Positions 12,949 to 28,083 of a stretch of 64,000 nt of DNA are shown here, in pieces (position 1 is the first letter of the stretch; every line of letters starts with the position of its first letter). The notes under the pieces were generated by a model. That model was not told where the DNA came from. It worked only from the letters and a program-made list of their open reading frames with translations, and did not search any database. The position numbers were made by a program, and so were the translations under genes. Source of the stretch: Microcoleus sp. AS-A8 (lineage in GTDB: Bacteria; Cyanobacteriota; Cyanobacteriia; Cyanobacteriales; Coleofasciculaceae); NCBI GenBank assembly GCA_039962225.1, contig JAMPKV010000007.1, forward strand, positions 248,001 through 312,000, given 5' to 3'.

Positions 12949-13290
12949 TTAACTGTGCGACAAACTCTCTAAACTTAAGGGAACCATATCTCCACTTGTT
13001 GTCAGTCCTAATAGCATCGGCTCGTGCGGTCGAATAAACTTACCCGTGAGTACGCAGCGTTCTTCTTGTTGGGCTACAGCTTCTATACTGGCTCGGATAT
13101 CAGACCGGGAAAATTCGGGGCGATAATCACCGGATTTTTGCTGCACATAGTTCCAAAGTACATCTCGTATCAGAGCTTGATATCCCTGGTTGCCAGAGAG
13201 TTCTTTGAGCTTCTCTTTGAGTTCTCTCTCTAAACGGATACTGGTCACTTCCATGTCAGTGGTTGCCGTTCTAGTGAGTGTACGCATCAT
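12949..13290 (-). CDS. Ribbon-helix-helix domain protein
   Basis: A 113-residue protein. Start ATG 13290 is preceded by GGAG at good spacing; a longer frame to 13371 has no support. The segment MEVTSIRLERELKEKLKELSGNQGYQALIRDVLWNYV (about residues 12-50) matches an RHH/CopG-like DNA-binding fold. The C-terminal part is an uncharacterised region ending in VPLSLESL. It could be a stand-alone regulator or an antitoxin without a detectable partner. Confidence 0.75.
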   Translation of the reverse strand: MMRTLTRTATTDMEVTSIRLERELKEKLKELSGNQGYQALIRDVLWNYVQQKSGDYRPEFSRSDIRASIEAVAQQEERCVLTGKFIRPHEPMLLGLTTSGDMVPLSLESLSHS

Positions 13291-13539
13291 CTTTTTTCTC
13301 CAAAATATATGGACATGTTTGTAATACCAGTGTAGTATGTAAAAGTCAGCTTTCAAATCCATCTTTACCAATTCACTTTCTGTGAGCCTTCATATATCTC
13401 TTTCCACCCTATGCCCTGATGCTGCCGCCCTTCGAGGTTGGCACTCAGTGACATCACGGGTGGATTTTTGGTATGAGGGCAGGTATAGCTCGATAGAAGA
13501 ACATAAAGCAGAGATTGGCAATCAATTTAATAAAGACGC

Positions 13540-13712: not shown

Positions 13713-14267
13713 ATGAGGAAGCAAACCGTGACGAGCGCAACTGAAGTGTTAAGGCAATCTGTGGTGGTGTTCTCGAAGAACTATCTGCCAGTCAGTCGGG
13801 TCAACATTAAGCGAGCGATCGCTCTCCTCGTGACGGGGAAAGCTGAACCTCTAGATTTTACGTTAGGCAAAGGAGGCAAAGGCATTGCCGTGCATTCACC
13901 CAGTGTGGTGCTGTTGGTACCTGAACACATTCGTTTGACGATTACAGATCGAGAGCGGGTTTGGAAAGTGCCTCCTGTGAATCGACGGGAAGTTTTAAGA
14001 CGAGATAAGCACACCTGTCAATACTGCGGCAGCACCAAGCACTTAACACTCGATCACGTAATTCCCCGATCAAAAGGCGGAAAACACACTTGGGACAACG
14101 TAGTTATAGCTTGCGAACGGTGTAACAGCCGAAAAGGCGATCGCACTCCCCTGCAAGCGGGAATGACACTACGCACCCAGCCGAAAGCGCCAATGCACCC
14201 AACTGTTGCCTTCTCGGAGCAGTTCTGGCGTGAACAGCAAGTAAACCTGGAGAGGCAGGAGATATAG
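13713..14267 (+). CDS. Small PLMP-HNH endonuclease-like protein (IshB-like)
   Basis: 184 residues. The N-terminal region (about 14-60, NYLPVSRVNIKRAIALLVTGKAEPLDF) resembles the PLMP domain that opens IscB-family proteins (PLMP...RAR.LL..GKA). It is followed by a compact zinc-type HNH nuclease (about 92-150: CQYCG, LDHVIPRSKGG, WDNVVIACERCNSRKGDR). There is no RuvC domain, so the size and order match the group described as IshB. A strongly folded leader lies directly upstream. The alternative is the widespread chromosomal cyanobacterial HNH family that shares this N-terminus without a guide RNA. The nuclease motifs are intact. Confidence 0.8.
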   Translation: MRKQTVTSATEVLRQSVVVFSKNYLPVSRVNIKRAIALLVTGKAEPLDFTLGKGGKGIAVHSPSVVLLVPEHIRLTITDRERVWKVPPVNRREVLRRDKHTCQYCGSTKHLTLDHVIPRSKGGKHTWDNVVIACERCNSRKGDRTPLQAGMTLRTQPKAPMHPTVAFSEQFWREQQVNLERQEI

Positions 14268-14270
14268 CTG

Positions 14271-14651
14271 ATGCTGAAACTCACTTATACCGAAAACGGC
14301 TTTTATTTAGAGCGTCTGGCTCAACCCCTTGAGGAATGGGTCACGGCACGAGTGATTCTGGCGCTGAGAGCGGGTACTAACCTTTGTGTCGAACCCAGCA
14401 CGGCATCGTTTCTGCTGCCCGTGGGGATGCCACAGCTGCGTCATCTGGAACGGCATAAGGAGGGAGAAGATGCGATCGCGCTTTCAATCTGCGATGCCGA
14501 ATACGTCGAAGTCAGCCTCAAAGGAACTTGGATGACATCAGACATTGATGGTGCTGAAGGGGTCTTTGTAACATCCCTGAATTACGCGGTTGAATTTTTC
14601 CTGATCAAGCTGTGGGAAGAGTCTCAAATCCGGACTAGTTGTCTGCCATAA
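14271..14651 (+). CDS. Conserved hypothetical, cotranscribed with the HNH gene
   Basis: A 126-residue alpha/beta protein beginning 3 nt after the HNH stop codon, with CAGGAG as ribosome-binding site inside the HNH 3' end, so the two genes are translationally linked. There are no transmembrane segments and no motif I recognise. The tight coupling suggests a shared role, but similar proteins may also occur alone. Confidence 0.6.
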   Translation: MLKLTYTENGFYLERLAQPLEEWVTARVILALRAGTNLCVEPSTASFLLPVGMPQLRHLERHKEGEDAIALSICDAEYVEVSLKGTWMTSDIDGAEGVFVTSLNYAVEFFLIKLWEESQIRTSCLP

Positions 14652-14671: not shown

Positions 14672-14777
14672 ATACCAAGTTGCGTTCATACGTAGCACTT
14701 TCTCTCCCCCTTGTCTCCCTTGTCTCCCTTGTCTTCAACAGTCCCCCTATCTACTATCTTTGACTGCAACTTGGTAT
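14672..14777. mobile_element. MITE-like element, copy 1 (106 bp)
   Basis: Terminal inverted repeats ATACCAAGTTGC / GCAACTTGGTAT enclose 2-3 copies of a 9-bp CTTGTCTCC repeat. An inverted near-identical copy lies at 17551-17665. The TA at each edge suggests TA target duplication, as for IS630-type elements (inference). Confidence 0.8.
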
Positions 14778-15354
14778 CAGCCACCAATTGAATTGTGTGA
14801 GGTAGCACGGCGATGCTACCTCCTCTTTCCTTCGGCTGTATGAGAGGCACTCTTACAGAAGACTAAGGGCAAAAAATTTGCACTATATATTATCGACACT
14901 TCCTTAGCTTCTCTCGCTCAAGCCTAGTAACTGCAAGGCATTGACAACCTCAAAAAAAACTTTCCCCAAACCCTTGACACTTTATGTAGTATTTATGTAG
15001 TATTTATGTAGTGAAGCAAAGAACGGAGCTAAAAACTCCAACTCCAAAGCACTATGTTGTTACTACTGATTCGATTCCCCGGTCAACGTAGACCAAATCG
15101 GGATTCAAACAAAAGACCGAATCAGCCTCCTTTCCAAAAACCTGAAAGAGTGCGAGAACAACGGTCATCCGAACACATCAATCAAATACAAACCAACGTT
15201 CGCTATCACAATATCAGACAGATATATCAACTAGAACGTCGGTTCTTTCTCTAAATAATCTAAGTTCTTTCACTGAACCTTGAAAACTGAATAAGAAAGC
15301 ACCCATTTAATTCATCAATCTGTGCTGACAGCCATAAGCACAGATGTCTTGAAC
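14778..15354. other. Leader region of the tRNA array
   Basis: About 580 bp without a convincing protein gene. A 66-codon frame at 15054-15254 has no ribosome-binding site or domain. The interval holds the array promoter with 11-bp repeats (14974-15013) and an 8-bp stem hairpin TCTGTGCT / AGCACAGA at 15319-15344 just before the first tRNA-like unit. Confidence 0.6.
14974..15013 (+). promoter_or_regulatory. Predicted promoter of the tRNA array with three 11-bp direct repeats
   Basis: TTGACA (14974-14979), an 18-bp spacer and TAGTAT (14998-15003) make a good sigma-70 type promoter. The spacer and -10 lie within three head-to-tail copies of TTTATGTAGTA (14981-14991, 14992-15002, 15003-15013, the last ending in G). 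The period equals one helical turn, which suggests a repressor or activator binding site. Confidence 0.65.
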
Positions 15355-15462
15355 GGAAGCGTAGCTCAACTGGTAATTAGTACAAGATGTTCTTCAATCT
15401 GTTCTGAAAACCCGTTGATTTCCTCTTACAAAAAGAGGTCAGGTAATAACCGGCTACGCTCC
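15355..15462 (+). pseudogene. tRNA-like structure with degenerate T-arm
   Basis: A tRNA-like 5' end (GCGTAGCTCAACTGG) and a 3' strand that pairs with it over 10 bp with one bulged A. An anticodon-like arm is present (AGAT / ATCT with an 8-nt loop), and a strong hairpin CCTCTT / AAGAGG sits where a variable arm would be. The canonical TTCRA T-loop is missing. The anticodon cannot be assigned. Probably a decayed tRNA or a processing leader. Confidence 0.4.
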
Positions 15463-15507
15463 CAAAAATCAAGACCTATAAATAGTGGGAATTGCTGATT
15501 GAGTCCT

Positions 15508-15580
15508 GGGACTGTAGCTCAGTGGTTAGAGCGTTCCCCTGTCGAGGGAAGGGTCGCCAGTTCAAATCTGGTCAGTCTCG
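15508..15580 (+). tRNA. tRNA-Asp(GTC)
   Basis: Full cloverleaf: acceptor GGGACTG with one G-T pair, D-stem GCTC/GAGC, anticodon stem TTCCC/GGGAA around loop CTGTCGA, T-arm GCCAG-TTCAAAT-CTGGT. Confidence 0.93.
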
Positions 15581-15595
15581 CTCAACGGCAATTAT

Positions 15596-15745
15596 GGAAG
15601 TTTAAATTCAGATCTTGCACCAGGCTTTTTACCCCACCCCAACCCTCCCCTTATCAAGGGGAGGGAGCTAAAGTTCCCCCGAACTCAAGCCGGAGCTTTA
15701 GTGAGGAGGCTAGGGGGGTGGTGCAAGATGTGAGTTAAAACTTCC
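15596..15745. mobile_element. MITE-like element between tRNA genes (150 bp)
   Basis: Terminal inverted repeats of about 27 bp (GGAAGTTT...ATCTTGCACCA and its complement, three mismatches) enclose a GC-rich inner inverted repeat (CCCTCCCC / GGGGAGGG). No open frame. Unrelated in sequence to the ATACCAAG element. Confidence 0.75.
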
Positions 15746-15759
15746 TTCTCCCACCGAAT

Positions 15760-15831
15760 GGCCCCATCGAATAAGGGCTAATTCACCTGTCTTTCAAGCA
15801 GGCAATACGGGTTCGAGTCCCGTTGGGGCTA
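15760..15831 (+). tRNA. tRNA-Glu(TTC)
   Basis: Acceptor GGCCCCA/TGGGGCT, D-stem GAAT/ATTC, anticodon stem CCTGT/GCAGG around loop CTTTCAA, T-arm ACGGG-TTCGAGT-CCCGT. Confidence 0.92.
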
Positions 15832-15845
15832 TCAGATTGATGAAC

Positions 15846-15923
15846 GAGGTCGAGTACCCAAGTGGTTCAAGGGAGCGGATTGCAAACCCGTTATTCGTGG
15901 GTTCAAATCCCACCTCGACCTCT
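15846..15923 (+). tRNA. tRNA-Cys(GCA)
   Basis: Acceptor GAGGTCG/CGACCTC, anticodon loop TTGCAAA, T-arm GTGGG-TTCAAAT-CCCAC. The last anticodon-stem pair (A-C) is mismatched. Confidence 0.9.
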
Positions 15924-15947
15924 CAATCTGCTAATCATCTGGTGCAT

Positions 15948-16020
15948 GGGAGTATAGCTCAACTGGCAGAGCAGCGCCCTCTTAAGGCGAATGTAGCAGG
16001 TTCGACCCCTGCTACTCCCA
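15948..16020 (+). tRNA. tRNA-Lys(CTT)
   Basis: Acceptor GGGAGTA/TACTCCC, D-stem GCTC/GAGC, anticodon loop CTCTTAA, T-arm GCAGG-TTCGACC-CCTGC. The C34 anticodon is an addition to the usual Lys(TTT). Confidence 0.92.
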
Positions 16021-16033
16021 CATCAGTTCGCGA

Positions 16034-16105
16034 GGCTCCATCGTCTAGTGGTTAGGACGTCGCTCTGTCACGGCGGAGATGGGGGTTCAATTCCCCCTGG
16101 GGCCG
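16034..16105 (+). tRNA. tRNA-Asp(GTC) with a Glu-like body
   Basis: Acceptor GGCTCCA/TGGGGCC, D-stem GTCT/GGAC, anticodon loop CTGTCAC, T-stem GGGGG/CCCCC. The D-arm and 3' half closely match the tRNA-Glu(CTC) at 16208, not the tRNA-Asp at 15508. Confidence 0.9.
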
Positions 16106-16124
16106 TTGTTCGATTTAATGGCTT

Positions 16125-16196
16125 GGGAGTATAGCTCAGAGGTAGAGCAGTCCTCTCATAAGGGACTAGTCGCAGGTTCAAGTCCTGCTACTCCTA
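16125..16196 (+). tRNA. tRNA with CAT anticodon (Met or Ile2)
   Basis: Acceptor GGGAGTA/TACTCCT, D-stem GCTC/GAGC, anticodon stem GTCCT/GGGAC around loop CTCATAA, T-arm GCAGG-TTCAAGT-CCTGC. Acceptor and T-arm resemble the nearby tRNA-Lys(CTT), so charging identity is uncertain. Confidence 0.9.
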
Positions 16197-16207
16197 CTGA
16201 AAAACAT

Positions 16208-16303
16208 AGCCTCATCGTCTAGTGGTTAGGACACTGCCCCCTCAAGGCAGAAACGAGGTGTACCCTTCGGGAACACTGACGCGAACAAATCCCCCTGGGG
16301 CTA
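16208..16303 (+). tRNA. tRNA-Glu(CTC) with T-arm insertion
   Basis: Acceptor AGCCTCA/TGGGGCT, D-stem GTCT/GGAC, anticodon stem CTGCC/GGCAG around loop CCCTCAA. The 5' side of the T-arm is disrupted by an insert of about 28 nt (about 16259-16286) that forms a GTGT(A)CCC / GGG(A)ACAC hairpin and ends in GCGAAC. It is possibly a pseudogene. Confidence 0.75.
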
Positions 16304-16306
16304 TTT

Positions 16307-16391
16307 GGAGAGGTGGCTGAATTGGTTAAAGCACTTTCCTGCTAAGAAAGCATGGGGCAACCCATTGCAGGTTCAAATCCTGTCCTCTCCG
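16307..16391 (+). tRNA. tRNA-Ser(GCT)
   Basis: Class II tRNA: acceptor GGAGAGG/CCTCTCC, anticodon stem CTTTC/GAAAG around loop CTGCTAA, long variable arm, T-arm GCAGG-TTCAAAT-CCTGT. Confidence 0.95.
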
Positions 16392-16402
16392 CCTTTTTAC
16401 CT

Positions 16403-16485
16403 GGGTCGGCTCGCCTATTAGCGTGGGCAACTGTCTGTAAAACAGCCGCTTTCGTGCGTTGCAGGTGCAAGTCCTGCTCGACCCA
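16403..16485 (+). tRNA. tRNA-Tyr(GTA)
   Basis: Class II tRNA: acceptor GGGTCGG/TCGACCC, anticodon loop CTGTAAA, variable arm CGC...GCG, T-arm GCAGG-TGCAAGT-CCTGC. The T-loop has G in place of the second T. Confidence 0.92.
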
Positions 16486-16530
16486 TTGAATTTTGGATTT
16501 CAGATTTGGGTTTCAAAGTTCAAATCGTAT

Positions 16531-16602
16531 GTGGGGATGGTGTAATTGGCAACATCTCGATCTCCAAAATCGAAGATCTGAGTTCAAATCTCAGTCCCCG
16601 CG
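16531..16602 (+). tRNA. tRNA-Trp(CCA)
   Basis: Acceptor GTGGGGA/TCCCCGC, D-stem GTGT/ACAT, anticodon stem TCGAT/ATCGA around loop CTCCAAA, T-arm TGAG-TTCAAAT-CTCA. A 3' CCA is encoded at 16603-16605. Confidence 0.94.
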
Positions 16603-16607
16603 CCAAT

Positions 16608-16682
16608 GAGAGCGTAGTTTAACTGGATAAAACATTAGTCTACGAAACTGAAGAGGTGAAGGTTCGATTCCTTCCGCTCTCG
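16608..16682 (+). tRNA. tRNA-Arg(ACG)
   Basis: Acceptor GAGAGCG/CGCTCTC, D-stem GTTT/AAAC, anticodon loop CTACGAA, T-arm GAAGG-TTCGATT-CCTTC. Confidence 0.94.
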
Positions 16683-16689
16683 TCAACTT

Positions 16690-16775
16690 GGAGAGGTGGT
16701 CGAGTGGCTTAAGGCGCAGACTTGGAAAGTCTGATTAGGTTTTACCTAACGCAGGTTCAAATCCTGTCCTCTCCG
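16690..16775 (+). tRNA. tRNA-Ser(GGA)
   Basis: Class II tRNA: acceptor GGAGAGG/CCTCTCC, anticodon stem CAGAC/GTCTG around loop TTGGAAA, variable arm TTAGGT...ACCTAA, T-arm GCAGG-TTCAAAT-CCTGT. Confidence 0.95.
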
Positions 16776-16784
16776 TTGAAACTT

Positions 16785-16858
16785 TCCCCGGTAGCTCAGT
16801 TGGTAGTAGCGCCTGTTTGAAGCACAGGAGGTCGTCAGTTCGATACTGACCTGGGGGG
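16785..16858 (+). tRNA. tRNA-Phe(GAA)
   Basis: Acceptor TCCCCGG/CTGGGGG with terminal wobble pairs, anticodon stem CCTGT/ACAGG around loop TTGAAGC, T-arm GTCAG-TTCGATA-CTGAC. The D-stem has one mismatch. Confidence 0.9.
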
Positions 16859-16865
16859 CTGTCGT

Positions 16866-16937
16866 TGCCTCATAGCTCAATGGTAGAGCCACGCGCTGTT
16901 AACGCGGGGGTTGTAGGTTCGAGTCCTACTGGGGCAG
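16866..16937 (+). tRNA. tRNA-Asn(GTT)
   Basis: Acceptor TGCCTCA/TGGGGCA, D-stem GCTC/GAGC, anticodon loop CTGTTAA, T-arm GTAGG-TTCGAGT-CCTAC. CCA is encoded at 16938-16940. Confidence 0.94.
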
Positions 16938-16950
16938 CCATTTATTTCAT

Positions 16951-17022
16951 TGCCGGGTGGACGAATAGGCAAGTCGCAGTTCTCTGAAATCTGAGATACA
17001 GGTTCAAGCCCTGTCCCGGCAT
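16951..17022 (+). tRNA. tRNA-Gln(CTG)
   Basis: Acceptor TGCCGGG/CCCGGCA, anticodon loop CTCTGAA with one mismatch in its stem, T-arm ACAGG-TTCAAGC-CCTGT. CCA is encoded at 17023-17025. Confidence 0.9.
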
Positions 17023-17030
17023 CCACGAAT

Positions 17031-17105
17031 TGGGGAGTAGGCGACGTTGGCAAAGCCACCTGATTTTGGATCAGGATTTCGTAGGTTCGATTCCTGCCTC
17101 CCCAG
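17031..17105 (+). tRNA. tRNA-Gln(TTG)
   Basis: Acceptor TGGGGAG/CTCCCCA, anticodon stem CCTGA/TCAGG around loop TTTTGGA, T-arm GTAGG-TTCGATT-CCTGC. Confidence 0.94.
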
Positions 17106-17141
17106 TTGTGCTCTCTGACTTTGATAGAGCAGCTAAATAAT

Positions 17142-17215
17142 ACTCCTGTAGCCCAATCGGAAGAGGCAGCAAGCTTAAACCTTGCGCGTTGCTGGTTCAA
17201 ACCCAGCCAGGAGTA
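17142..17215 (+). tRNA. tRNA with TAA (Leu) anticodon and class I body
   Basis: Acceptor ACTCCTG/CAGGAGT, anticodon stem GCAAG/CTTGC around loop CTTAAAC, a 5-nt variable loop, T-arm GCTGG-TTCAAAC-CCAGC. Bacterial tRNA-Leu normally has a long variable arm, which is absent here. Confidence 0.85.
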
Positions 17216-17219
17216 TCTA

Positions 17220-17293
17220 CGGGATGTGGCGCAGCTTGGTAGCGCAGCAGCTTTGGGAGCTGATGGTCGCAGGTTCAAATCCTGTCATCCCGA
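17220..17293 (+). tRNA. tRNA-Pro(TGG)
   Basis: Acceptor CGGGATG/CATCCCG, D-arm GCGC/GCGC, anticodon loop TTTGGGA, T-arm GCAGG-TTCAAAT-CCTGT. Confidence 0.95.
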
Positions 17294-17296
17294 TAT

Positions 17297-17370
17297 GCCC
17301 CTGTAGCCCAATCGGAAGAGGTGCCGCACTTAGAATGCGGAGGTTACTGGTTCAAGCCCAGTCAGGGGTA
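17297..17370 (+). tRNA. tRNA with TAG (Leu) anticodon and class I body
   Basis: Acceptor GCCCCTG/CAGGGGT, anticodon stem CCGCA/TGCGG around loop CTTAGAA, a 5-nt variable loop, T-arm ACTGG-TTCAAGC-CCAGT. Body nearly identical to the TAA tRNA at 17142. Confidence 0.85.
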
Positions 17371-17379
17371 TTGGTGCGA

Positions 17380-17456
17380 TGCGGGGATAGAGCAACGGTT
17401 AAGGATCGGCAGTCTCATAAGCTGAAATCAGCAGGTTCGACCTGCCCCCGCCACCA
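17380..17456 (+). tRNA. tRNA-Met(CAT), initiator-like
   Basis: The acceptor GCGGGG pairs with CCCCGC. A T1-C72 mismatch and the following TAGAGC recall initiator tRNA. The anticodon loop is CTCATAA. The T-arm GCAG-GTTCGAC-CTGC is one pair short. CCA is encoded at 17454-17456. Exact ends are uncertain. Confidence 0.75.
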
Positions 17457-17460
17457 AATT

Positions 17461-17532
17461 GCAGGCGTGGTGCAATGGCAAGCATAGGAGTTTCGTAATC
17501 TTCTGATGCGAGTTCGACTCTCGCCGCCTGCT
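17461..17532 (+). tRNA. tRNA-Thr(CGT)
   Basis: Acceptor GCAGGCG/CGCCTGC, anticodon loop TTCGTAA with the closing pair mismatched, T-arm GCGAG-TTCGACT-CTCGC. Confidence 0.9.
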
Positions 17533-17536
17533 TCGA

Positions 17537-17771
17537 GCAGATGTGGTGTAATACCAAGTTGCAGTCAAAGATAGTAGATAGGGGGACTGTTGAAGACAAG
17601 GGAGACAAGGGAGACAAGGGAGACAAGGGGGAGAGAAAGTGCTACGTATGAACGCAACTTGGTATAAGTGGTAACACAAGGGCATGGTAAGTCCTCGATG
17701 TGTGTACCCTAGCCTTCGGCAACGGCTAACGCCGAACGGGAACGCTTCGCGAACAATCCCCGCCGTCTGCT
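17537..17771 (+). pseudogene. tRNA-Thr(GGT) split by a MITE and a palindromic insert
   Basis: The outer ends pair as an acceptor stem (GCAGATG at 17537, CGTCTGC at 17764-17770). A MITE sits in the D-loop, between D-stem halves GTGT and ACAC. The anticodon stem AGGGC/GTCCT with loop ATGGTAA gives GGT. The T-arm is broken by a second insert (about 17703-17753) rich in TTCGGC/GCCGAA palindromes and ending in GCGAAC. Unlikely to yield a functional tRNA. Confidence 0.75.
17551..17665. mobile_element. MITE-like element, copy 2 (115 bp, inverted relative to copy 1)
   Basis: Reverse complement of the element at 14672-14777, with one extra 9-bp GGGAGACAA unit. It is inserted in the D-loop of tRNA-Thr(GGT). 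Confidence 0.85.
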
Positions 17772-17780
17772 CCAGATAAT

Positions 17781-17852
17781 GCAGGTGTGATGTAACTGGC
17801 AACATGAGGCTCTTGTAAAGCCTTCTTGCGAGTTCAAATCTCGCCACCTGCT
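17781..17852 (+). tRNA. tRNA-Thr(TGT)
   Basis: Acceptor GCAGGTG/CACCTGC, D-stem ATGT/ACAT, anticodon stem AGGCT/AGCCT around loop CTTGTAA, T-arm GCGAG-TTCAAAT-CTCGC. Confidence 0.95.
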
Positions 17853-17898
17853 TGTGGCTAGGCTAGAGGTCTTTTTTTGTAGTGGAGAGGAGGGAAAT

Positions 17899-18528
17899 AT
17901 GACAACCATGACGGTTACGGATGCTCTAGCAGAGTTGACGCTGTTGGAAAAGCGTATTAATTCAGCAAGAGTAGCTTTGGACAATAACACATTGATTGCT
18001 GTTGTTGAAGTCGGCAAAGTGCCAACAGGCTTTAAGTCCAGAGACGATCATGCAGCGCAAGCGAGAGCATCTCTGCAAAGGGTGGACGCTCTGATCGATC
18101 GCAGACGAGTTATCAAAAGAGCGATCGTTCTTTCTAACGCTTCGACGATGGTTTTTGTTGCAGGGCAAGAGATGACAATCGCAGAAGCCATTGAAATGAA
18201 AAGCTTCATCTCCTACTACAAAGAAGTGCTTGCCACGATTACCTTAGCTTACTCTCGCACCTGCCAGGAGTACAAAGTTGCCCAAGCGCGGGTGAAAGAG
18301 CGACTGGATAAACTGGCGATAGAAGTGTTAGGTAAGAATGCTTCTTCGGAAAAGTACCAGTCATTAGCGGATAGCTTCCTGGCACGCGAGGGGGTTGAAC
18401 TGCTCGATCCAACTACTTTGGCAGAAGAAATTGCCAGACGAGTGACGTTCGTCGAACAGTTCGAGTCAACTTGCGATCGCGTTCTGTCTATCAGCAATGC
18501 GCGGACAATGATTGAAATTCCCGACTAA
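17899..18528 (+). CDS. Phage-like hypothetical protein inside the tRNA array
   Basis: 209 residues from ATG 17899 behind a very strong GAGGAGGG ribosome-binding site. The predicted fold is almost entirely helical with long amphipathic stretches: LAELTLLEKRINSARVAL, a central DALIDRRRVIKRAIVLSNAS, then IAEAIEMKSFISYYKEVL and LDKLAIEVLG. The pattern vaguely recalls septicolysin/DIP1984-like proteins of phages and mobile elements, but I cannot make a firm family call. It lies between tRNA-Thr(TGT) and tRNA-Gly(TCC) on the same strand, so it is likely read through with the array. Cargo of the element that brought the array is my inference. Confidence 0.7.
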   Translation: MTTMTVTDALAELTLLEKRINSARVALDNNTLIAVVEVGKVPTGFKSRDDHAAQARASLQRVDALIDRRRVIKRAIVLSNASTMVFVAGQEMTIAEAIEMKSFISYYKEVLATITLAYSRTCQEYKVAQARVKERLDKLAIEVLGKNASSEKYQSLADSFLAREGVELLDPTTLAEEIARRVTFVEQFESTCDRVLSISNARTMIEIPD

Positions 18529-18571
18529 AATGGGCTTGCTGGTCACTCGAAAATCTCTAAATTTATGGTTT

Positions 18572-18644
18572 TGGTGGATAGCTCAATGGGTAGAGCGCAT
18601 GACTTCCAATCATGAAGTTGTTGGTTCGAGTCCAACTCCATCAA
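18572..18644 (+). tRNA. tRNA-Gly(TCC), first copy
   Basis: Acceptor TGGTGGA/TCCATCA, D-stem GCTC/GAGC, anticodon stem CATGA/TCATG around loop CTTCCAA, T-arm GTTGG-TTCGAGT-CCAAC. CCA is encoded at 18645-18647. Confidence 0.94.
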
Positions 18645-18647
18645 CCA

Positions 18648-18830
18648 TGAATGTTAAAGCTTAAAGCTCAACGCTTAACGCTCAAAGTTCAATCGTTAAA
18701 GATTAGACAGTCAACATTCAAACCATAAAGGTTAAAGCTCGATAAAATCCAGGGGTTCTGGTTGTAGGTTCCATAAAACCTTGAGGTTTCCACCTGGCTG
18801 AGTGGTCAGCATCCCACTTCTTTTAATCAA
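18648..18830 (+). other. Spacer with short TTAAAGCTC-type repeats and tRNA-like fragments
   Basis: It begins with degenerate repeats of TTAAAG/GCTCAA motifs. From about 18750, pieces resemble parts of tRNAs: an AGGT...ACCT arm with a CAT-containing loop, then CCTGGCTGAGTGGTCAGC and a TTTTAATCAAG loop. No complete cloverleaf can be drawn. Probably tRNA remnants. Confidence 0.35.
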
Positions 18831-18901
18831 GCGGATATGGTGTAACGGTAGCATCTGAGCCTTCCAAGCTTTAGGTACGAGTTCAAATCTCGTTGTCCGC
18901 T
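18831..18901 (+). tRNA. tRNA-Gly(TCC), second copy
   Basis: Acceptor GCGGATA/TGTCCGC, anticodon loop CTTCCAA, T-arm ACGAG-TTCAAAT-CTCGT. The body differs from the first Gly(TCC). Confidence 0.92.
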
Positions 18902-18911
18902 CTTTCAAAAT

Positions 18912-18983
18912 GCGGGTGTGATGTAGTGGTTAGCATCTGAGTCTGCCAGTCTCAGCGCATGGGTTCGAGTCCCATCATCCGCT
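18912..18983 (+). tRNA. tRNA-Gly(GCC)
   Basis: Acceptor GCGGGTG/CATCCGC, D-stem ATGT/GCAT, anticodon loop CTGCCAG with a T-T closing mismatch, T-arm ATGGG-TTCGAGT-CCCAT. Confidence 0.92.
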
Positions 18984-18988
18984 TTCGT

Positions 18989-19061
18989 AGTCCTGTAGCT
19001 CAGTCGGGAGAGCGCCTCTCTTACAAAGAGGATGTCACAGGTTCAAATCCTGTCAGGACTA
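18989..19061 (+). tRNA. tRNA-Val(TAC)
   Basis: Acceptor AGTCCTG/CAGGACT, D-stem GCTC/GAGC, anticodon stem CCTCT/AGAGG around loop CTTACAA, T-arm ACAGG-TTCAAAT-CCTGT. CCA is encoded at 19062-19064. Confidence 0.96.
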
Positions 19062-19069
19062 CCAATTAT

Positions 19070-19143
19070 GGGAGTGTAACTCAACTGGATAGAGTACCAA
19101 TCTTCTAAATTGGCTGCTGTAGGTTCAAGTCCTACCACTCCTG
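19070..19143 (+). tRNA. tRNA-Arg(TCT)
   Basis: Acceptor GGGAGTG/CACTCCT, D-stem ACTC/GAGT, anticodon stem CCAAT/ATTGG around loop CTTCTAA, T-arm GTAGG-TTCAAGT-CCTAC. Confidence 0.95.
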
Positions 19144-19214
19144 TTGCAAACAAGATAAAAGGAGGTTTTTTTTTCTGAAATTAATTGAACGGAATGTTGC
19201 GATCGCGATTGTAT

Positions 19215-19288
19215 GGGTCTGTAGCTTAATTGGTAAAGCATCGCTCTGGCAGAGCGAAAGATGTCAGTTCAAGTCTGACCAGTATCCA
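19215..19288 (+). tRNA. tRNA-Ala(GGC)
   Basis: Anticodon stem TCGCT/AGCGA around loop CTGGCAG; T-arm GTCAG-TTCAAGT-CTGAC. Acceptor GGGTCTG pairs with CAG-ATCC only if one extra T in the 3' strand bulges out. The G3-T70 Ala identity pair is kept. Confidence 0.88.
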
Positions 19289-19296
19289 GAAAACAT

Positions 19297-19369
19297 GGGT
19301 CTGTAGTTCCAATGGGAGAACGCTTCTCTTGCAAAGAAGAAGTTGTGGGTTCGACCCCCACCAGATCCA
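19297..19369 (+). tRNA. tRNA-Ala(TGC)
   Basis: Acceptor GGGTCTG/CAGATCC with the G3-T70 identity pair, anticodon stem CTTCT/AGAAG around loop CTTGCAA, T-arm GTGGG-TTCGACC-CCCAC. Confidence 0.95.
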
Positions 19370-19370
19370 C

Positions 19371-19401
19371 TGTGTCTGAAGTAAAAGTGGTCAAGGTATC
19401 T
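19371..19401 (+). pseudogene. 5' remnant of a tRNA-His
   Basis: About 30 nt matching the first part of the intact tRNA-His at 20383 (GTGTCTGAAGT, AAG, GGTC shared) with scattered changes. It ends where the HNH-gene leader begins. Confidence 0.55.
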
Positions 19402-19428
19402 TACAATATTCTTTGACCTTGACCACTT
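19385..19428 (+). promoter_or_regulatory. Long inverted repeat upstream of the HNH gene
   Basis: Perfect 13-bp arms AAGTGGTCAAGGT (19385-19397) and ACCTTGACCACTT (19416-19428) with an 18-nt loop, ending 6 nt before ATG 19435. It could be an operator or an mRNA hairpin that limits HNH translation. Confidence 0.7.
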
Positions 19429-19434
19429 AAGCCA

Positions 19435-20313
19435 ATGACTAAGAAGCAGCGTAAGTACAGCAAAGAGATTTTAGAAAGTGTTGTTAAAGAATCGCGAAGT
19501 ATTAGTGAAGTTGCTAGAAGACTAGGCATTCCTGATAGAGGAGGAAACAGGAAAACAATTAAAAGTAAAATTAAGCAATTTGGAATTGATTGCAGTCACT
19601 TCACTGGACAAGCTTGGGCTAGAGGTCAAACGGCAGATACAAGCGAACCAATTCGTAGAATGAGAACGAAGCTCTCATATTCAAATGATGAAATATTTGT
19701 TCAAAATTCTAAATACTTAGGAGGGGGTAGCAGACTAGCTCCAAGACTCAGGAGCCTGGGATGGAATTATGTTTGTCAAGAGTGTGGATTGTCAGAGTGG
19801 AGGGGGAAAGCCTTGACCTTGCATTTAGATCACATCAATGGTATCCCTGATGACCACCGTTTGGAAAACTTACGTTTTCTTTGTCCTAATTGTCATCAGC
19901 AAACACAGACTTGGGGGAATAAGAGAAGGGATGGATATTGCAGTCCACCTTTATTAATTCAAAATAGTCAACTAATTTTGTCAACAGAAATAAATCATAT
20001 ATCGGTTAATACTTCTATTAAATTTTATTCTAAAAATCAATCAATAAATTGCTCTTATTGTGCTAAAGCTCTTACTACATCAAATCAACATAGTTACTGT
20101 TCTATGCAATGTTTCAACTTAGCATCCAGACGAATTGTAAGACCGCCTAAAGAGGAGTTAGAAAAAATGATTTGGACTAAACCAACTACTCATATAGCAA
20201 GGAATTTTGGGGTCAGTGATAAGGCAGTCGAAAAATGGTGTAAGGCTTATGGCATTGAGAAACCTCCCAGAGGTTACTGGGCAAAGCTAAATTCCAAGAA
20301 TACGGGTCTGTAG
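19435..20313 (+). CDS. Phage-type HNH endonuclease within the tRNA array
   Basis: 292 residues. An N-terminal HTH-like segment (about 20-55, SISEVARRLGIPDRGGNRKTIKSKIKQFGID) precedes an HNH nuclease core (about 112-165: CQECG, LHLDHINGIPDDHRLENLRFLCPNCHQQT). A second zinc-knuckle-like region follows (CSYC...YCSMQC, about 212-232), and the C-terminal HTH (HIARNFGVSDKAVEKWCKAYGIEKPPRGYW) is typical of phage homing endonucleases. The stop codon lies inside the tRNA-Ala(CGC) gene, overlapping it by 10 bp. The upstream flank holds a tRNA-His remnant, as expected if the gene entered by homing or by a local duplication. AT-richer than its neighbours. Confidence 0.9.
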   Translation: MTKKQRKYSKEILESVVKESRSISEVARRLGIPDRGGNRKTIKSKIKQFGIDCSHFTGQAWARGQTADTSEPIRRMRTKLSYSNDEIFVQNSKYLGGGSRLAPRLRSLGWNYVCQECGLSEWRGKALTLHLDHINGIPDDHRLENLRFLCPNCHQQTQTWGNKRRDGYCSPPLLIQNSQLILSTEINHISVNTSIKFYSKNQSINCSYCAKALTTSNQHSYCSMQCFNLASRRIVRPPKEELEKMIWTKPTTHIARNFGVSDKAVEKWCKAYGIEKPPRGYWAKLNSKNTGL

Positions 20314-20377
20314 CTTAACTGGGAAAGCAGCTAATTCGCAATTAGCGAGATGTGGGTTCTATTCCCACCAGTATCTA
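20304..20377 (+). tRNA. tRNA-Ala(CGC)
   Basis: Anticodon stem GCTAA/TTAGC around loop TTCGCAA; T-arm GTGGG-TTCTATT-CCCAC. The acceptor carries the same bulged T as tRNA-Ala(GGC). Its 5' end overlaps the HNH stop codon. Confidence 0.88.
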
Positions 20378-20382
20378 CTTAC

Positions 20383-20459
20383 GGTGTCTGAAGTCGAAGC
20401 GGTCGAGACACCAGGCCGTGACCCTGGTCATTAACGGGTTCAAGCCCCGTCAGGCACCC
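20383..20459 (+). tRNA. tRNA-His(GTG)
   Basis: The eight-pair acceptor GGTGTCTG/CAGGCACC shows the extra G-1 typical of tRNA-His, with C73. Anticodon stem CCAGG/CCTGG around loop CCGTGAC; T-arm CGGG-TTCAAGC-CCCG. Confidence 0.95.
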
Positions 20460-20465
20460 TTGAAT

Positions 20466-20551
20466 GGAAGCTGCTGCCGAGAGGACGGCAACCTGTCTCG
20501 AAAGCAGGAGTGCAGTGAACAACTGTAGGGGTTCGACTCCTCCAGCTTCCG
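20466..20551 (+). tRNA. tRNA-Ser(CGA)
   Basis: Class II tRNA: acceptor GGAAGCT/AGCTTCC, anticodon stem CCTGT/GCAGG around loop CTCGAAA, long variable arm CAGT...ACTG. Confidence 0.93.
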
Positions 20552-20562
20552 TTATTCAACTT

Positions 20563-20649
20563 GGAAGATGCCGCTGAATGGACGGCAACTGCGCTTGAAC
20601 CGCAGGGTACGGCAGAGATGTCGTAGGGGTTCGATTCCTCCATCTTCCT
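20563..20649 (+). tRNA. tRNA-Ser(TGA)
   Basis: Class II tRNA: acceptor GGAAGAT/ATCTTCC, anticodon stem CTGCG/CGCAG around loop CTTGAAC, variable arm TACGGC...GTCGTA. Confidence 0.93.
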
Positions 20650-20651
20650 TA

Positions 20652-20725
20652 TCCACCAGAAGCCGAGAAGCGAGGCACTGTGCTGATAACGCAGAGGTAG
20701 GAGGGGCAGTACCTCCCTGGTGGAT
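20652..20725 (+). tRNA. tRNA-Ile(GAT) with aberrant T-loop
   Basis: Acceptor TCCACCA/TGGTGGA, D-stem GCC/GGC, anticodon stem CTGTG/CGCAG around loop CTGATAA. The T-stem GGAGG/CCTCC is perfect but its loop reads GGCAGTA, lacking the TTC core. Confidence 0.8.
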
Positions 20726-20727
20726 TT

Positions 20728-20787
20728 CCCTTACCTGCGGGATGCAGACTTGTCCCTCCGAAGGACAAGTAGCCAGGTTCAACTCCT
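20728..20787 (+). tRNA. tRNA-Arg(CCG), only 60 nt
   Basis: Acceptor CCCTTAC/GTAAGGG, a very short D-arm (CTGC/GCAG with a 5-nt loop), a long anticodon stem CTTGTCC/GGACAAG around loop CTCCGAA, and a normal T-arm CCAGG-TTCAACT-CCTGG. Positions 8-9 appear to be missing. Confidence 0.7.
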
Positions 20788-20790
20788 GGG

Positions 20791-20874
20791 TAAGGGGTCA
20801 TTCCTCGATCGCTCAACACCAGAGTTCTCTCCTGTCAACCGCAGGGTTCCTGCATCAAATCCAGGTTGAGGAGT
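20791..20874 (+). pseudogene. Degenerate tRNA-like sequence
   Basis: The ends pair as an acceptor (TTCCTCG/TGAGGAG) and a D-arm CTC/GAG is visible. The best anticodon arm, TCCTG/CAGGG with loop TCAACCG, lacks T33. The T-loop ATCAAAT lacks the normal start. The anticodon is uncertain (AAC or CAA). Confidence 0.5.
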
Positions 20875-20884
20875 TCACGTGAAT

Positions 20885-20956
20885 GGGGATGTAGCTCGAT
20901 GGCAGAGCAATCGGCTTTTAACCGATTGGGTGTGGGTTCGAGTCCCACCATCCCCA
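20885..20956 (+). tRNA. tRNA-Lys(TTT)
   Basis: Acceptor GGGGATG/CATCCCC, D-stem GCTC/GAGC, anticodon stem ATCGG/CCGAT around loop CTTTTAA, T-arm GTGGG-TTCGAGT-CCCAC. It is the last member of the array. Confidence 0.96.
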
Positions 20957-20975
20957 CTAATTTACCCATTCGTTG

Positions 20976-22572: not shown

Positions 22573-23292
22573 ATGATTTTCGAGTTTCCATCTGAGGATG
22601 ATTGGCAGCGTATATCTCGCACTTTTCCGTTTAAGGAACTCAATATTCCAAACGATAGTTTCGGTCAATACGGAGCTGCAAGTAACGATTTCAACCTACT
22701 ATTTACGAAGACAGAACTGGAGGAATGGACAAAACATCTAAAAAATCGATTGTATGACGTTCACATGAGTTATGTAATGTTGTGCTTCTACTTTGAAAAA
22801 GGTATTCCAGACAAGGAATGGTTTATTTCGCCAGGACGGAATGGTGAGTCCGTTCAATATTTTCCACATTTCACCCAATATCACTTTCAAATAAAGAGTT
22901 GGTTTGATTACTATGTGGACACGTTCTATTACAAACTGTTTTCGGCACTGGATACTATAGGGCAGATTCTCAATATCAGGCATAACCTAGGGATAAAGAA
23001 ACCAGATTTAGGTAAGGTTATGAAAAAACTAGAAAAGATGCGTCCGGATATTCATAACGAGCTAAAGCGATTGAAAGACAAGTCTGCTTTCAAGCAAGCG
23101 AATGAACTGAGAAACGATATTACACATAACTTCTTACCAAGTAGCATAGGTGGAAGCATTACAAAATTTCAGGATGCACCTGCTTTAGGGATCGGAGAAT
23201 ATGTACCATCGGCAACTATTAAACAAAATGTTATCGATGTGCTTTATGTATTTGCCGATATCCTGAATTATCTCAAGAGAGATGATAAATAG
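22573..23292 (+). CDS. Second HEPN-like protein (Cthe_2314-type)
   Basis: 239 residues, mostly helical. FDYYVDTFYYKLFSALDTIGQIL (about 115-137) and the C-terminal R180-NDIT-H185 give the Rx4H motif and helix arrangement of Cthe_2314-like HEPN domains. The motif is intact, so RNase activity is possible. It follows the first HEPN gene by 82 bp. The pair could form a hetero-oligomer or be independent cassettes. Upstream sequence shows no strong ribosome-binding site. Confidence 0.75.
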   Translation: MIFEFPSEDDWQRISRTFPFKELNIPNDSFGQYGAASNDFNLLFTKTELEEWTKHLKNRLYDVHMSYVMLCFYFEKGIPDKEWFISPGRNGESVQYFPHFTQYHFQIKSWFDYYVDTFYYKLFSALDTIGQILNIRHNLGIKKPDLGKVMKKLEKMRPDIHNELKRLKDKSAFKQANELRNDITHNFLPSSIGGSITKFQDAPALGIGEYVPSATIKQNVIDVLYVFADILNYLKRDDK

Positions 23293-23554: not shown

Positions 23555-23752
23555 GTGGCTTCCATCACCATTAACATTCCAGACGCTCAATTACAGAAGT
23601 TGCAACAATTAGCACAGGAAAACGGAATCTCTCTTGAAGACTTGCTACGTGCAAGCATTGAGGATTGGCTCAGTTATCCAAAGAGCGAATTTGTCCAAGC
23701 GTCAAACTATGTGTTGAAGAAAAATGCTGAGTTATATCGACGCTTGGCATGA
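23555..23752 (+). CDS. Antitoxin of the Doc module (ribbon-helix-helix-like)
   Basis: 65 residues from GTG 23555 behind AGAGGA. The N-terminus ASITINIPDAQLQKLQQLAQENGISLEDLLRASIEDWL is an RHH-like DNA-binding fold. The C-terminal tail (PKSEFVQASNYVLKKNAELYRRLA) is the usual extension that threads into a Doc toxin's active site. The last four bases overlap the toxin start (ATGA), so the two are translationally coupled. It probably represses its own operon. Confidence 0.85.
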   Translation: MASITINIPDAQLQKLQQLAQENGISLEDLLRASIEDWLSYPKSEFVQASNYVLKKNAELYRRLA

Positions 23753-24141
23753 TACGTTACCTGACGCTAGTCGAAGTGCTTAATCTGCACCGTCAGATTA
23801 TCGAGCAGTCAGGAGGTGCTTTGGGTGTGCGTGACTTGGGTGCATTGGAATCTGCTCTAGCTCAACCTCGCATGACATTTGGCGGAGAAGATTTGTATCC
23901 AACGCTTGTTGATATGGCTGCTGCTGTAGGTTTCTCGATAGTGATGAATCATCCGTTTGTGGATGGCAATAAGCGCACAGGTCATGCGGCAATGGAAACG
24001 TTCCTGGTCTTGAATGGAATGGAGATTAGCGCTTCTGTCGATGAGCAAGAACAGGTTATCCTCGCGTTAGCATCTGGTAATTCAGGGCGTGAGTCGTTTG
24101 TCGAGTGGTTGAAGCAACATATCACAGCCATCGAACAGTAG
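23749..24141 (+). CDS. doc: Doc-type death-on-curing toxin
   Basis: 130 residues of the Fic/Doc fold with the complete active-site loop HPFVDGNKRTGH (about residues 68-79). Doc toxins phosphorylate elongation factor Tu and so stop translation. The length is normal and the motif intact, so the toxin is probably active unless its antitoxin is present. It forms a two-gene operon with the 23555 antitoxin. Confidence 0.92.
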   Translation: MIRYLTLVEVLNLHRQIIEQSGGALGVRDLGALESALAQPRMTFGGEDLYPTLVDMAAAVGFSIVMNHPFVDGNKRTGHAAMETFLVLNGMEISASVDEQEQVILALASGNSGRESFVEWLKQHITAIEQ

Positions 24142-25039: not shown

Positions 25040-25381
25040 ATGAGCGGCATTGACCGTGACATTATCCTCGACCTCCGGCATATCGCCAAACATCTACCCG
25101 ATACAACTCCAGTGCAAAGGTTATTGAGACGAGGACGATCAGCTCACGTTTTTAACGATGATGCCACAATGGATAGAATTGCCCAAGCCATTATAGAAAC
25201 AGGAGAATATACAGGCATCATCAGAGGATATGAGCGTTACGGGTTATTTTTTACTGAACCCATTGGTTACAGAATCAATCCTGATGATGGTTCCCGAACT
25301 CCACTATTCTATGGAGAGGTGAAAATTGATACAGAAAACCGATATCACGTCATCCCCCGCACTCGACCCAGTGAGGGATAA
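25040..25381 (+). CDS. Small DUF6972-like protein, possible toxin
   Basis: 113 residues. The C-terminal part (ETGEYTGIIRGYERYGLFFTEPIGYRINPDDGSRTPLFYGEVKIDTENRYHVIPRTRPS) resembles cyanobacterial proteins of the DUF6972 type and the beta-rich core of small RNase-like toxins. It has a conserved-looking Arg/Tyr/His pattern and no signal peptide. It overlaps the next gene slightly, consistent with a two-gene module. A toxin role is inferred from the neighbourhood and not shown. Confidence 0.65.
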   Translation: MSGIDRDIILDLRHIAKHLPDTTPVQRLLRRGRSAHVFNDDATMDRIAQAIIETGEYTGIIRGYERYGLFFTEPIGYRINPDDGSRTPLFYGEVKIDTENRYHVIPRTRPSEG

Positions 25382-25598
25382 TTGGCACTTTACAGAAGTC
25401 TGGATCGATCCAATGTTGTCACCTCCATATGTATTACTACTCCTGAGCAACCAAGCAGGACACTGTTGCGTGTACGATCCTGCCGAAGGTTACAAGGTGA
25501 TATTTAGCAGTTCAACCTACCAAGAAGCGCAGAATTGGCTGCTAGAAGATGAATATGAGCCAATTGAAGGGCGACTCTGTGCATCTGACTTTCAGTAG
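25374..25598 (+). CDS. Small protein paired with the 25040 gene, possible immunity protein
   Basis: About 74 residues if started at GTG 25374, which overlaps the upstream stop by 8 bp; a longer TTG start at 25326 is possible. Content: NWHFTEVWIDPMLSPPYVLLLLSNQAGHCCVYDPAEGYKVIFSSSTYQEAQNWLLEDEYEPIEGRL. It is acidic and compact, a pattern common in immunity or antitoxin proteins. No named family recognised. Confidence 0.6.
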   Translation, partial: RDNWHFTEVWIDPMLSPPYVLLLLSNQAGHCCVYDPAEGYKVIFSSSTYQEAQNWLLEDEYEPIEGRLCASDFQ

Positions 25599-25698
25599 AG
25601 TGCGATCTGCTGAAAGCAGCAGCGCAACGCTCTCGCAAGCTTGCTGACGGTAGTTTTATTGCTTCATTATTGGGTAAAGAAGTGAACCGTTGAAGCTC

Positions 25699-25812
25699 AT
25701 ACCAATTCTCTATGAAGTTGCACTTTATGAACCCCCGGCTATCGCCGTCCCCCTTATTAAGGAGGACTACAGGGGGTAATCAATTAAGTGTATTGTTACT
25801 GAGAAATGGTAT
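25699..25812. mobile_element. MITE-like element (114 bp)
   Basis: Terminal inverted repeats ATACCAATTCTC / GAGAAATGGTAT (one mismatch) with a short G/C-rich inverted core and no open frame. A different family from the ATACCAAGTTGC element, though the first six bases are shared. Confidence 0.7.
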
Positions 25813-25879
25813 CACAACCGATTAACAACCCCTTGCACTTAACTGCCAATCAACTTGAGCCTTGCAATACTGTGAACTG

Positions 25880-26401
25880 ATGAGTTGTGTACTCGAAACA
25901 ATACGATTACAGCTTCGTTCTTGCCAGATAGAGGATGTTCAAATTGTCCACATACTCTGGATAAATGACTGCATTCGCTATTTCCTCTTCGACAACCGAG
26001 TAATTTCGTTGGACGAGGCACAATCCTTCGTTGAGGACAGCCTTGCAAACTTTGAACAGCATGGGTATGGAATCTGGCTAGTTTTTGAGCGCGGCAATGA
26101 CAGTCTCGTCGGTTTTGCTGGCTTCTTGCCTTCACAAGAAGGGACTCCCAGTTTAATTTACGGAATTCATCCTAATCGCTGGGGATGTGGTTACGCCACG
26201 GAAGCCACCAGTGCCGTGTTGAATTATGCACTGGAAAATCTTGCTCTGTCCAAGGTGAGGGCGGATGTAGACGAACCGAATGTTGCATCTGTGCGAGTAC
26301 TTGAGAAGCTACGCATGAGGCGAATCGGTGACGCAGTCGTTAATGGGCATCCACTTATTTATTTTGAGCGCTCGCGCTCGGAGGAGTCAATCAATAGTTA
26401 A
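25880..26401 (+). CDS. GNAT acetyltransferase (RimJ/RimL type)
   Basis: 173 residues from ATG 25880. RimL-like start (LETIRLQLRSCQIEDV), acetyl-CoA-binding strand and loop in YGIHPNRWGCGYATEATSAVLNYAL, and the C-terminal NVASVRVLEKLRMRRIG. It probably acetylates an amino group on a protein or small molecule. The substrate cannot be predicted. Confidence 0.87.
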   Translation: MSCVLETIRLQLRSCQIEDVQIVHILWINDCIRYFLFDNRVISLDEAQSFVEDSLANFEQHGYGIWLVFERGNDSLVGFAGFLPSQEGTPSLIYGIHPNRWGCGYATEATSAVLNYALENLALSKVRADVDEPNVASVRVLEKLRMRRIGDAVVNGHPLIYFERSRSEESINS

Positions 26402-26545
26402 CCGACTTAAGCTACTAATGGAGGCGGTAAGTTAAGAGTTATTTGGCACAAACAATAATAGAAACGTAGTGATCAGCAAAATGTTGATAATCGTATTAAA
26501 CTGCTGAAGTTGGCATTAGCAGAAATACAGAGGGGCATAAATCTT

Positions 26546-27184: not shown

Positions 27185-27299
27185 TGAAAAGTTAGATGAA
27201 AATCAAATCTTTGTTGAGGTGCCCACCGATCAACAATCCCAGAAAATTAGATTGACACGACACACCTTAACAGCAATAAATGTCAAAGATTCACAATAG
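27147..27299 (+). CDS. Possible 50-residue protein overlapping the transporter gene
   Basis: An ATG frame starting inside the 3' end of the transporter gene and running to a TAG at 27297. It encodes a polar peptide (MNENKEPNQFF..., VEVPTDQQSQKIRLTRHTL). No domain. The overlap would fit translational coupling, but it may be a chance frame. Confidence 0.3.
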   Translation: MNENKEPNQFFRNEKLDENQIFVEVPTDQQSQKIRLTRHTLTAINVKDSQ

Positions 27300-27331
27300 T
27301 GAGAGTGGGCTAACCGTTCGCGTAGCGAGAA

Positions 27332-27859: not shown

Positions 27860-28083
27860 TACCTTGATTGATTGATTATCCATTGGCACGCGATCTAACA
27901 ATTGTTGTAGCCAACACTCAAAGCCATTCGTGTTGTGTTCAAGCGTCATTACTGCTGCTGAATGTACATTCAATAGCAAAAGCAGAATTATCTTGGCGAT
28001 CGCCACTTGGATGCGTCAACCTGAAAAACGCTGTAGTGTCTCCAAGTATAATCTCTACTATTTTCTGAACTTCCAGCCCAGCT

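Follow-up and report, generated by a model that had tools for sequence, protein, structure and literature searches.

A supernumerary tRNA array beside a trcR-type repressor gene in Microcoleus sp. AS-A8, probably a stress-induced back-up operon

The window analyzed here, a stretch of 64,000 nucleotides from the cyanobacterium Microcoleus sp. AS-A8 (contig JAMPKV010000007.1, positions 248,001 to 312,000), carries a dense array of transfer RNA (tRNA) genes beside a gene encoding a TrcR-type repressor. By analogy with Anabaena, the locus most likely represents a stress-induced, supernumerary back-up tRNA operon (L-array) that would be repressed by the adjoining TrcR. In Anabaena sp. PCC 7120, the trn operon comprises 26 tRNA genes on the delta plasmid and is silenced by the chromosomally encoded ribbon-helix-helix protein TrcR (All0854) until translation is inhibited (PMC10272220). 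This repressor binds TGTAGTAT over the -10 box TAGTAT, as determined by footprinting, and autoregulates its own gene via ATACTACACTTGTATTAC (PMC10272220).

The tRNA array and its linkage to trcR

ARAGORN with default settings called 32 tRNA genes between positions 15508 and 20957, every one of them on the + strand; the rest of the window gave no calls. Rfam tRNA matches that reached threshold concurred with these calls, and 200 dinucleotide shuffles of the array region yielded no calls. Relaxed settings added a His(GTG) gene (20384-20459) and an initiator-type tRNA with the anticodon CAT (17381-17452), giving 34 genes, and a non-canonical Ile(GAT) cloverleaf at 20652-20726 raises the array total to 35. 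Including relics, namely a tRNA-like leader, Glu(CTC), Thr(GGT) and a degenerate copy at 20799-20880, approximately 39 tRNA sequences are present. The figure of about 38 tRNA genes on one strand given in an earlier note on this DNA is fair once degenerate copies are counted along with these 34-35 genes. Coverage of all 20 amino acids, also claimed there, holds only if the Ile gene, which is missed by standard tools, is included; ARAGORN alone accounts for 19. With 32-34 tRNAs within 5.5 kb on a single strand and its kinship with other cyanobacterial plasmid and chromosomal arrays, the locus belongs to the L-arrays.

In the remainder of the genome (7.75 Mb on 54 contigs were searched), at least 40 dispersed tRNA genes representing nearly all isoacceptors were found. 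The array is therefore supernumerary, and the possibility that it is the organism's sole tRNA set is ruled out. The interpretation as a back-up set, proposed in the earlier note together with a comparison against the chromosomal tRNA genes, is supported by these separate genes and by a promoter-operator region like that of the Anabaena trn operon. The array promoter (14974..15014, + strand) was recognized in a promoter scan as TTGACA-18 nt-TAGTAT and carries TrcR-type sites spaced 11 bp apart, with TGTAGTAT at 14985 and 14996 and TGTAGTGA at 15007. As in the TrcR regulon, a TGTAGTAT site overlaps the -10 box.

The trcR gene (12949..13290, - strand) encodes a ribbon-helix-helix repressor of 113 amino acids, identified by translation and sequence match as the orthologue of Anabaena All0854; it also shows a weak NCBIfam match to VapB-type ribbon-helix-helix proteins. 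It is present as a single copy in the genome, 2 kb from the array. Motif and promoter scans predicted an autoregulatory operator at 13321..13338, ATACTACACTGGTATTAC on the - strand, which lies over the -10 box TACACT and is identical to the Anabaena trcR motif ATACTACACTTGTATTAC at 17/18 positions. Between trcR and the array promoter, an alr0856-like HNH endonuclease (13713..14267, + strand; Pfam HNH, E 2e-16) and an alr0857 family protein (14271..14651, + strand; NCBIfam NF045647, E 3e-50) are encoded. Copies of this HNH gene with 64-98% identity adjoin arrays in relatives, plasmid arrays included.

Conservation of this arrangement was evaluated in 149 genomes of the host's order. TrcR homologues occur in 133 of them and the tandem-operator pattern in 65, while the reversed control pattern occurs in none. 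Among the 39 genomes having both a TrcR gene and an operator-led array, trcR is located within 6 kb of the array in 16, as compared with approximately 0.1 expected from chance placement. Gene order in the linked genomes is invariably trcR(-), HNH(+), alr0857(+), operator and tRNAs. In three relatives (L076, L127 and L129), trcR, HNH and alr0857 are kept and just two tRNAs remain, and plasmid arrays of Nostoc and Calothrix are accompanied by the HNH gene and lack a nearby trcR. The simplest reading of these sequence comparisons would be an ancestral trcR-HNH-alr0857-array unit from which arrays later disappeared or relocated; alternatively, joining may have occurred repeatedly by way of the HNH gene common to them. 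In blastn searches, plasmids of Nostoc, Calothrix, Tolypothrix and Kovacikia matched 15-25% of the array query, and arrays were found in many relatives. On phages, TrcR yielded half-length matches of 41% in Nodularia phages only. In one relative (L089, genome G002), the trcR gene adjoining the array contains an in-frame TAA, which suggests that the repressor has been lost there.

The array of Microcoleus sp. AS-A8 is most likely chromosomal, because MurB and Mur ligase genes follow 12-15 kb downstream and the same-genus copy resides on a 7.47-Mb contig. A plasmid or phage location of this copy is, given the same observations, unsupported.

tRNA structures, broken genes and a non-canonical tRNA-Ile

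The tRNA genes and tRNA-like sequences of the array described in this section are all located on the + strand. The first tRNA block (15508..17532; ARAGORN/Rfam) comprises Asp, Glu, Cys, Lys, Asp, CAT, Ser, Tyr, Trp and Arg, continuing with Ser, Phe, Asn, Gln, Gln, Leu, Pro, Leu, the initiator-type CAT tRNA and Thr. It is followed by tRNA-Thr(TGT) at 17781..17852 and by Gly, Gly, Gly, Val, Arg, Ala and Ala at 18572..19370 (both ARAGORN/Rfam), and by Ala(CGC), His(GTG), Ser(CGA) and Ser(TGA) at 20304..20649 (ARAGORN, default and relaxed). A short tRNA-Arg(CCG) with an extended anticodon stem (20728..20797; ARAGORN) has 10 homologues, and the final gene, tRNA-Lys(TTT) at 20885..20957, scores 74.2 bits and is identical at 73/73 positions in the same-genus genome. 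Arrays of seven relatives additionally contain a tRNA with the anticodon CTA (labeled 'Pyl' by ARAGORN), mostly adjoining Val(TAC); judged from its anticodon, it is possibly an amber-reading tRNA.

Structural conservation of the tRNA genes was assessed by comparing the same-genus array pair. Among 59 changed stem pairs, 50 are still paired, 27 of them via double changes. The Ala-His-Ser module cannot be aligned between the two arrays, and the arrays are therefore mosaic.

Several members of the set are damaged. The Glu(CTC) gene (16208-16303) is broken by a palindromic insert and is intact in the same-genus relative. Thr(GGT) (about 17537..17776) contains a 115-bp repeat element in its D-loop and a palindromic insert in its T-arm; the gene is intact in the same-genus genome, as seen by comparison with L032. 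In most arrays, the second CAT tRNA, upstream of the Thr genes, resembles an initiator (5' C/T-GCGGGG, CCA encoded), and the T-arm of the copy in the window is 2 nt shorter. The self-sufficiency of the array suggested in the earlier note is doubtful, because inserts disrupt two of the tRNA genes, the initiator-type tRNA carries damage and Ile decoding depends on a non-canonical tRNA. Degenerate tRNA-like sequences were also recognized at 20799..20880 and before the first tRNA, where a conserved leader (about 15355..15466) is related to sequences in L032 and L035, the latter of which holds a TrcR-like site.

A repeat of approximately 110 bp occurs in two inverted copies (14673-14778 and 17551-17665) with the terminal inverted repeats ATACCAAGTTGC. 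It resembles a recently mobile miniature element, since one copy disrupts the Thr(GGT) tRNA. The small palindromic repeats at 16253-16285 (within Glu CTC) and 17705-17760 (within Thr GGT) are similar to short dispersed cyanobacterial repeats.

The cloverleaf at 20652..20726 is taken to be the tRNA-Ile of the array. It has the 7-nt anticodon loop CUGAUAA, A73 and a 7/5 branch; its T-loop reads GGCAGUA instead of the canonical TTCRANN, and its D-loop lacks GG. No Rfam family reached threshold for this RNA and it was missed by ARAGORN, which called no Ile tRNA in nearly all arrays compared. Covariation strongly supports the structure. In total, 38 homologues were found in array loci, and in a 31-sequence alignment 98.9% of cells are paired and 12/20 pairs show changes on both sides, whereas 0 of 500 shuffles reached any of the pairing measures. 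In alignment A1, the anticodon GAU is invariant and U33 is present in at least 90%. The window copy scores 103 bits against the covariance model R1, whose strong matches are confined to the host's order (16 of 194 phylum-sampled genomes matched, one of them weakly and outside the order). A search for a phage origin gave no notable phage match. The GGCAGUA-loop scaffold was also observed with the anticodon UAC (Val) in L101 (11288-11362), L109 (near 9560) and L045 (near 10354), and it may thus define a family of tRNAs that depart from the canonical form.

In Ser(CGA) and Ser(TGA) of the array, the acceptor stem is 8 bp long, and both give weak scores against tRNA-Sec. In this respect they are similar to the 8/4 acceptor-T branch that Mukai et al. 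reportedly described in 2017 for Ser and His tRNAs of some bacteria and phages. In contrast, the Ile(GAU) scaffold, with its 7/5 branch and GGCAGUA T-loop, departs from the norm in a different way.

Embedded proteins, the wider operator set and neighboring genes

Within the array, a protein of 209 amino acids belonging to the phrog_1491 family is encoded at 17899..18528 (+ strand, ATG at 17899). This open reading frame (ORF) occurs in the arrays of many relatives. Its named relatives come from Coleofasciculus, Symploca and Moorena, which places the host among those filamentous cyanobacteria, and its ratio of non-synonymous to synonymous substitution rates (dN/dS) of approximately 0.05 indicates strong purifying selection. 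Its predicted structure (mean per-residue confidence, pLDDT, 79.6; predicted template-modeling score, pTM, 0.56) retrieved PDB 3KDQ as the top Foldseek match (probability 1.00, E 0.006), which is a DUF6847 protein by sequence. Direct profile comparison between the ORF and DUF6847 was weak (probability 15%), and the predicted kinship with DUF6847 proteins is thus one of fold rather than of sequence profile. The PHROG designation as a tail fibre was replaced by the DUF6847 fold assignment on account of the match to 3KDQ. Homologues are present in 705 phage records and adjoin tRNA genes in 3/5 phages examined; that the protein helps to maintain tRNAs or ribosomes is conjecture. Furthermore, a homing-type HNH endonuclease (19435..20313, + strand; phrog_10822, E 1e-55) is inserted among the Ala tRNAs.

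A pattern scan of the organism's own genome detected twelve operator-like sites, and the reversed control none. Seven of the twelve can be placed before genes, three of these being the sites of trcR and the array. Operators also precede a spare L7/L12 gene (rplL2), followed by EF-Ts (tsf2) and DUF6847 genes, on contig C16, an EF-G paralogue on C18, rtcB on C3 and a gene for a 456-amino-acid protein on C17, whose L079 relative has no Pfam match. The genome harbors two L7/L12 genes and three EF-G-type genes. In relatives, the operator was found before genes for EF-G, L7/L12, RtcB, KptA and slipin. Work in Anabaena has demonstrated that TrcR targets RtcB, slipin and other genes (PMC10272220); EF-G, EF-Ts and L7/L12 are outside the list of strongest targets given there and are predicted as TrcR targets here from their operators. 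Since the operator precedes EF-G, L7/L12, EF-Ts, a DUF6847 protein and RtcB as well, the array probably supplies the tRNAs of a wider regulon for emergency translation. As in bacterial RNA repair regulons centered on RtcB, one control element serves RtcB, slipin, KptA and related genes here; unlike in those regulons, the element also precedes EF-G, EF-Ts, L7/L12 and the tRNA array, and the repressor is of the ribbon-helix-helix type rather than RtcR. In ten relatives, the same tandem operator often stands before a conserved ORF of 66 amino acids (MVHIRFEGRSYDIAENHL...), after which one to three unusual tRNA-like sequences come; this may be a second, short kind of tRNA-like locus under control of the operator.

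Downstream of the array, an HEPN_Cthe2314 gene (22573-23292, E 1e-30) and a Fic/Doc gene (23749-24141, E 1e-21) are present, as the earlier note had stated. The connection to the array implied there is unsupported, and the informative gene, trcR on the upstream side, had been overlooked. The two HEPN genes are absent from the array loci of 23/23 relatives compared and Doc occurs in 2, so that a link of the array with the toxin genes is not conserved. HEPN and Doc are probably unrelated neighbors, because they are not kept beside relatives' arrays. The operator scan found no operator-like sites at the HEPN and Doc genes, and PADLOC returned no matching complete defence system and nothing convincing. 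The region 25040-29474 encodes DUF6972, GNAT acetyltransferases, a cation-efflux protein and a RibD_C/DHFR-like gene, for which no link to the array was seen.

Proposed function and competing explanations

Based on the Anabaena system, TrcR, which would also repress itself, is proposed to occupy the tandem TGTAGTAT sites over the -10 box during normal growth, leaving the array silent. A block of elongation or damage to tRNAs would lower the TrcR level, and the derepressed array would be transcribed as one long RNA, from which RNase P and other processing enzymes would free tRNAs that refill the pool. We infer that the array is expressed and its tRNAs charged, and that the spare factors act jointly with it. 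What is established at this locus is the genes, the operator sequences and their linkage, together with structurally conserved tRNAs and purifying selection on the ORF. Several points weigh against the proposed function. The locus is known here from its sequence, with repression by TrcR, silence during normal growth and induction by translation inhibitors being adopted from Anabaena, for which alone they are known. Moreover, 23/39 arrays are unlinked to trcR, hence linkage is not required. The set is eroding, as shown by the broken genes for Thr(GGT) and Glu(CTC) and by the two nucleotides missing from the T-arm of the initiator-type tRNA, and a structural flag was raised for 25/34 array tRNAs as compared with 13/40 housekeeping tRNAs, several array tRNAs thus looking weaker. 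Finally, slower primary-sequence change in tRNAs than in spacers was looked for between the two same-genus arrays and not seen; the structural pairing test was used instead.

A degenerating relic lacking present function would agree with the four broken or degenerate copies, the damaged initiator-type tRNA and the relatives that keep two tRNAs beside trcR. It is very improbable in view of the intact operator and promoter, at least 30 structurally sound tRNAs, the retention of pairing in 50/59 changed stem pairs and the strong selection on the embedded ORF. The array may otherwise be selfish cargo, i.e., an HNH-driven mobile cassette that derives from a phage or plasmid and spreads via HNH recombination with little benefit to the host, its regulation merely rendering it harmless. 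HNH genes beside and inside arrays, the plasmid arrays with HNH and no nearby trcR, the ORF homologues in phages, several of them adjoining phage tRNAs, and the mosaic replacement of the Ala-His-Ser module fit this scenario. Nevertheless, compensatory changes preserve stem pairing in the tRNAs, the conserved repressor linkage and operators common to chromosomal translation genes point to host regulation, and the Anabaena array is reported, as cited in PMC10272220, to aid survival under antibiotics, which leaves the selfish scenario quite unlikely.

An anti-phage or anti-toxin device, in which the array replaces tRNAs cut by HEPN or other toxins of adjoining genes or by invading phages, is likewise considered unlikely. 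The downstream HEPN_Cthe2314 and Doc genes and the operator shared with rtcB, an RNA repair gene of the same genome, and with KptA in a relative are in line with it, but the missing conservation of HEPN and Doc at relatives' arrays, the lack of an operator-like site at these genes and the PADLOC result argue against it. The favored explanation thus remains the TrcR-repressed back-up operon. A broader proposal is advanced tentatively, with somewhat less than even confidence: TrcR may control a complete emergency translation apparatus consisting of spare tRNAs, EF-G, EF-Ts, L7/L12, two DUF6847-fold proteins, RNA repair enzymes and a tRNA-Ile of a new structural class. It would be deployed upon attack on the elongation machinery or tRNA pool, and its altered parts may be less sensitive to the attacking agents.

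Like the Anabaena trn operon, the locus is a long one-strand supernumerary tRNA operon with TGTAGTAT over the -10 box TAGTAT and an adjoining HNH gene (PMC10272220, PMC9938897). It differs in its chromosome-type contig, the position of trcR, HNH and alr0857 directly upstream, three operator repeats, a larger number of tRNAs, the conserved DUF6847-fold ORF inside and the non-canonical tRNA-Ile noted. The array units of mycobacteria and of their phages and plasmids are similarly dense, contain HNH genes and reside on mobile replicons; in contrast, no TrcR system is described for the mycobacterial units and their gene order is different, whereas cyanobacterial arrays share a dedicated promoter (PMC5966550). 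The locus is accordingly a variant of the L-array: its repressor and array are joined in a single conserved unit, which comes with a non-canonical tRNA-Ile and spare translation factors defined by the operator. The trcR-array linkage, the operator before spare factors, the tRNA-Ile and the ORF fold are new here, and part of this may stand in the L-array literature.

The locus bears on the question of what purpose silent second tRNA sets serve in bacteria. Repressor, operator and array form a unit of the same order and orientation in many genera, which can therefore be studied or moved as a whole, and the operator common to spare EF-G, EF-Ts, L7/L12 and RtcB turns the 'extra tRNAs' into a testable hypothesis of back-up elongation. 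Moreover, the non-canonical tRNA-Ile accounts for the apparent absence of Ile in the standard annotation of nearly all cyanobacterial arrays and, if charged, the GGCAGUA-loop tRNA-Ile would represent a new tRNA architecture.

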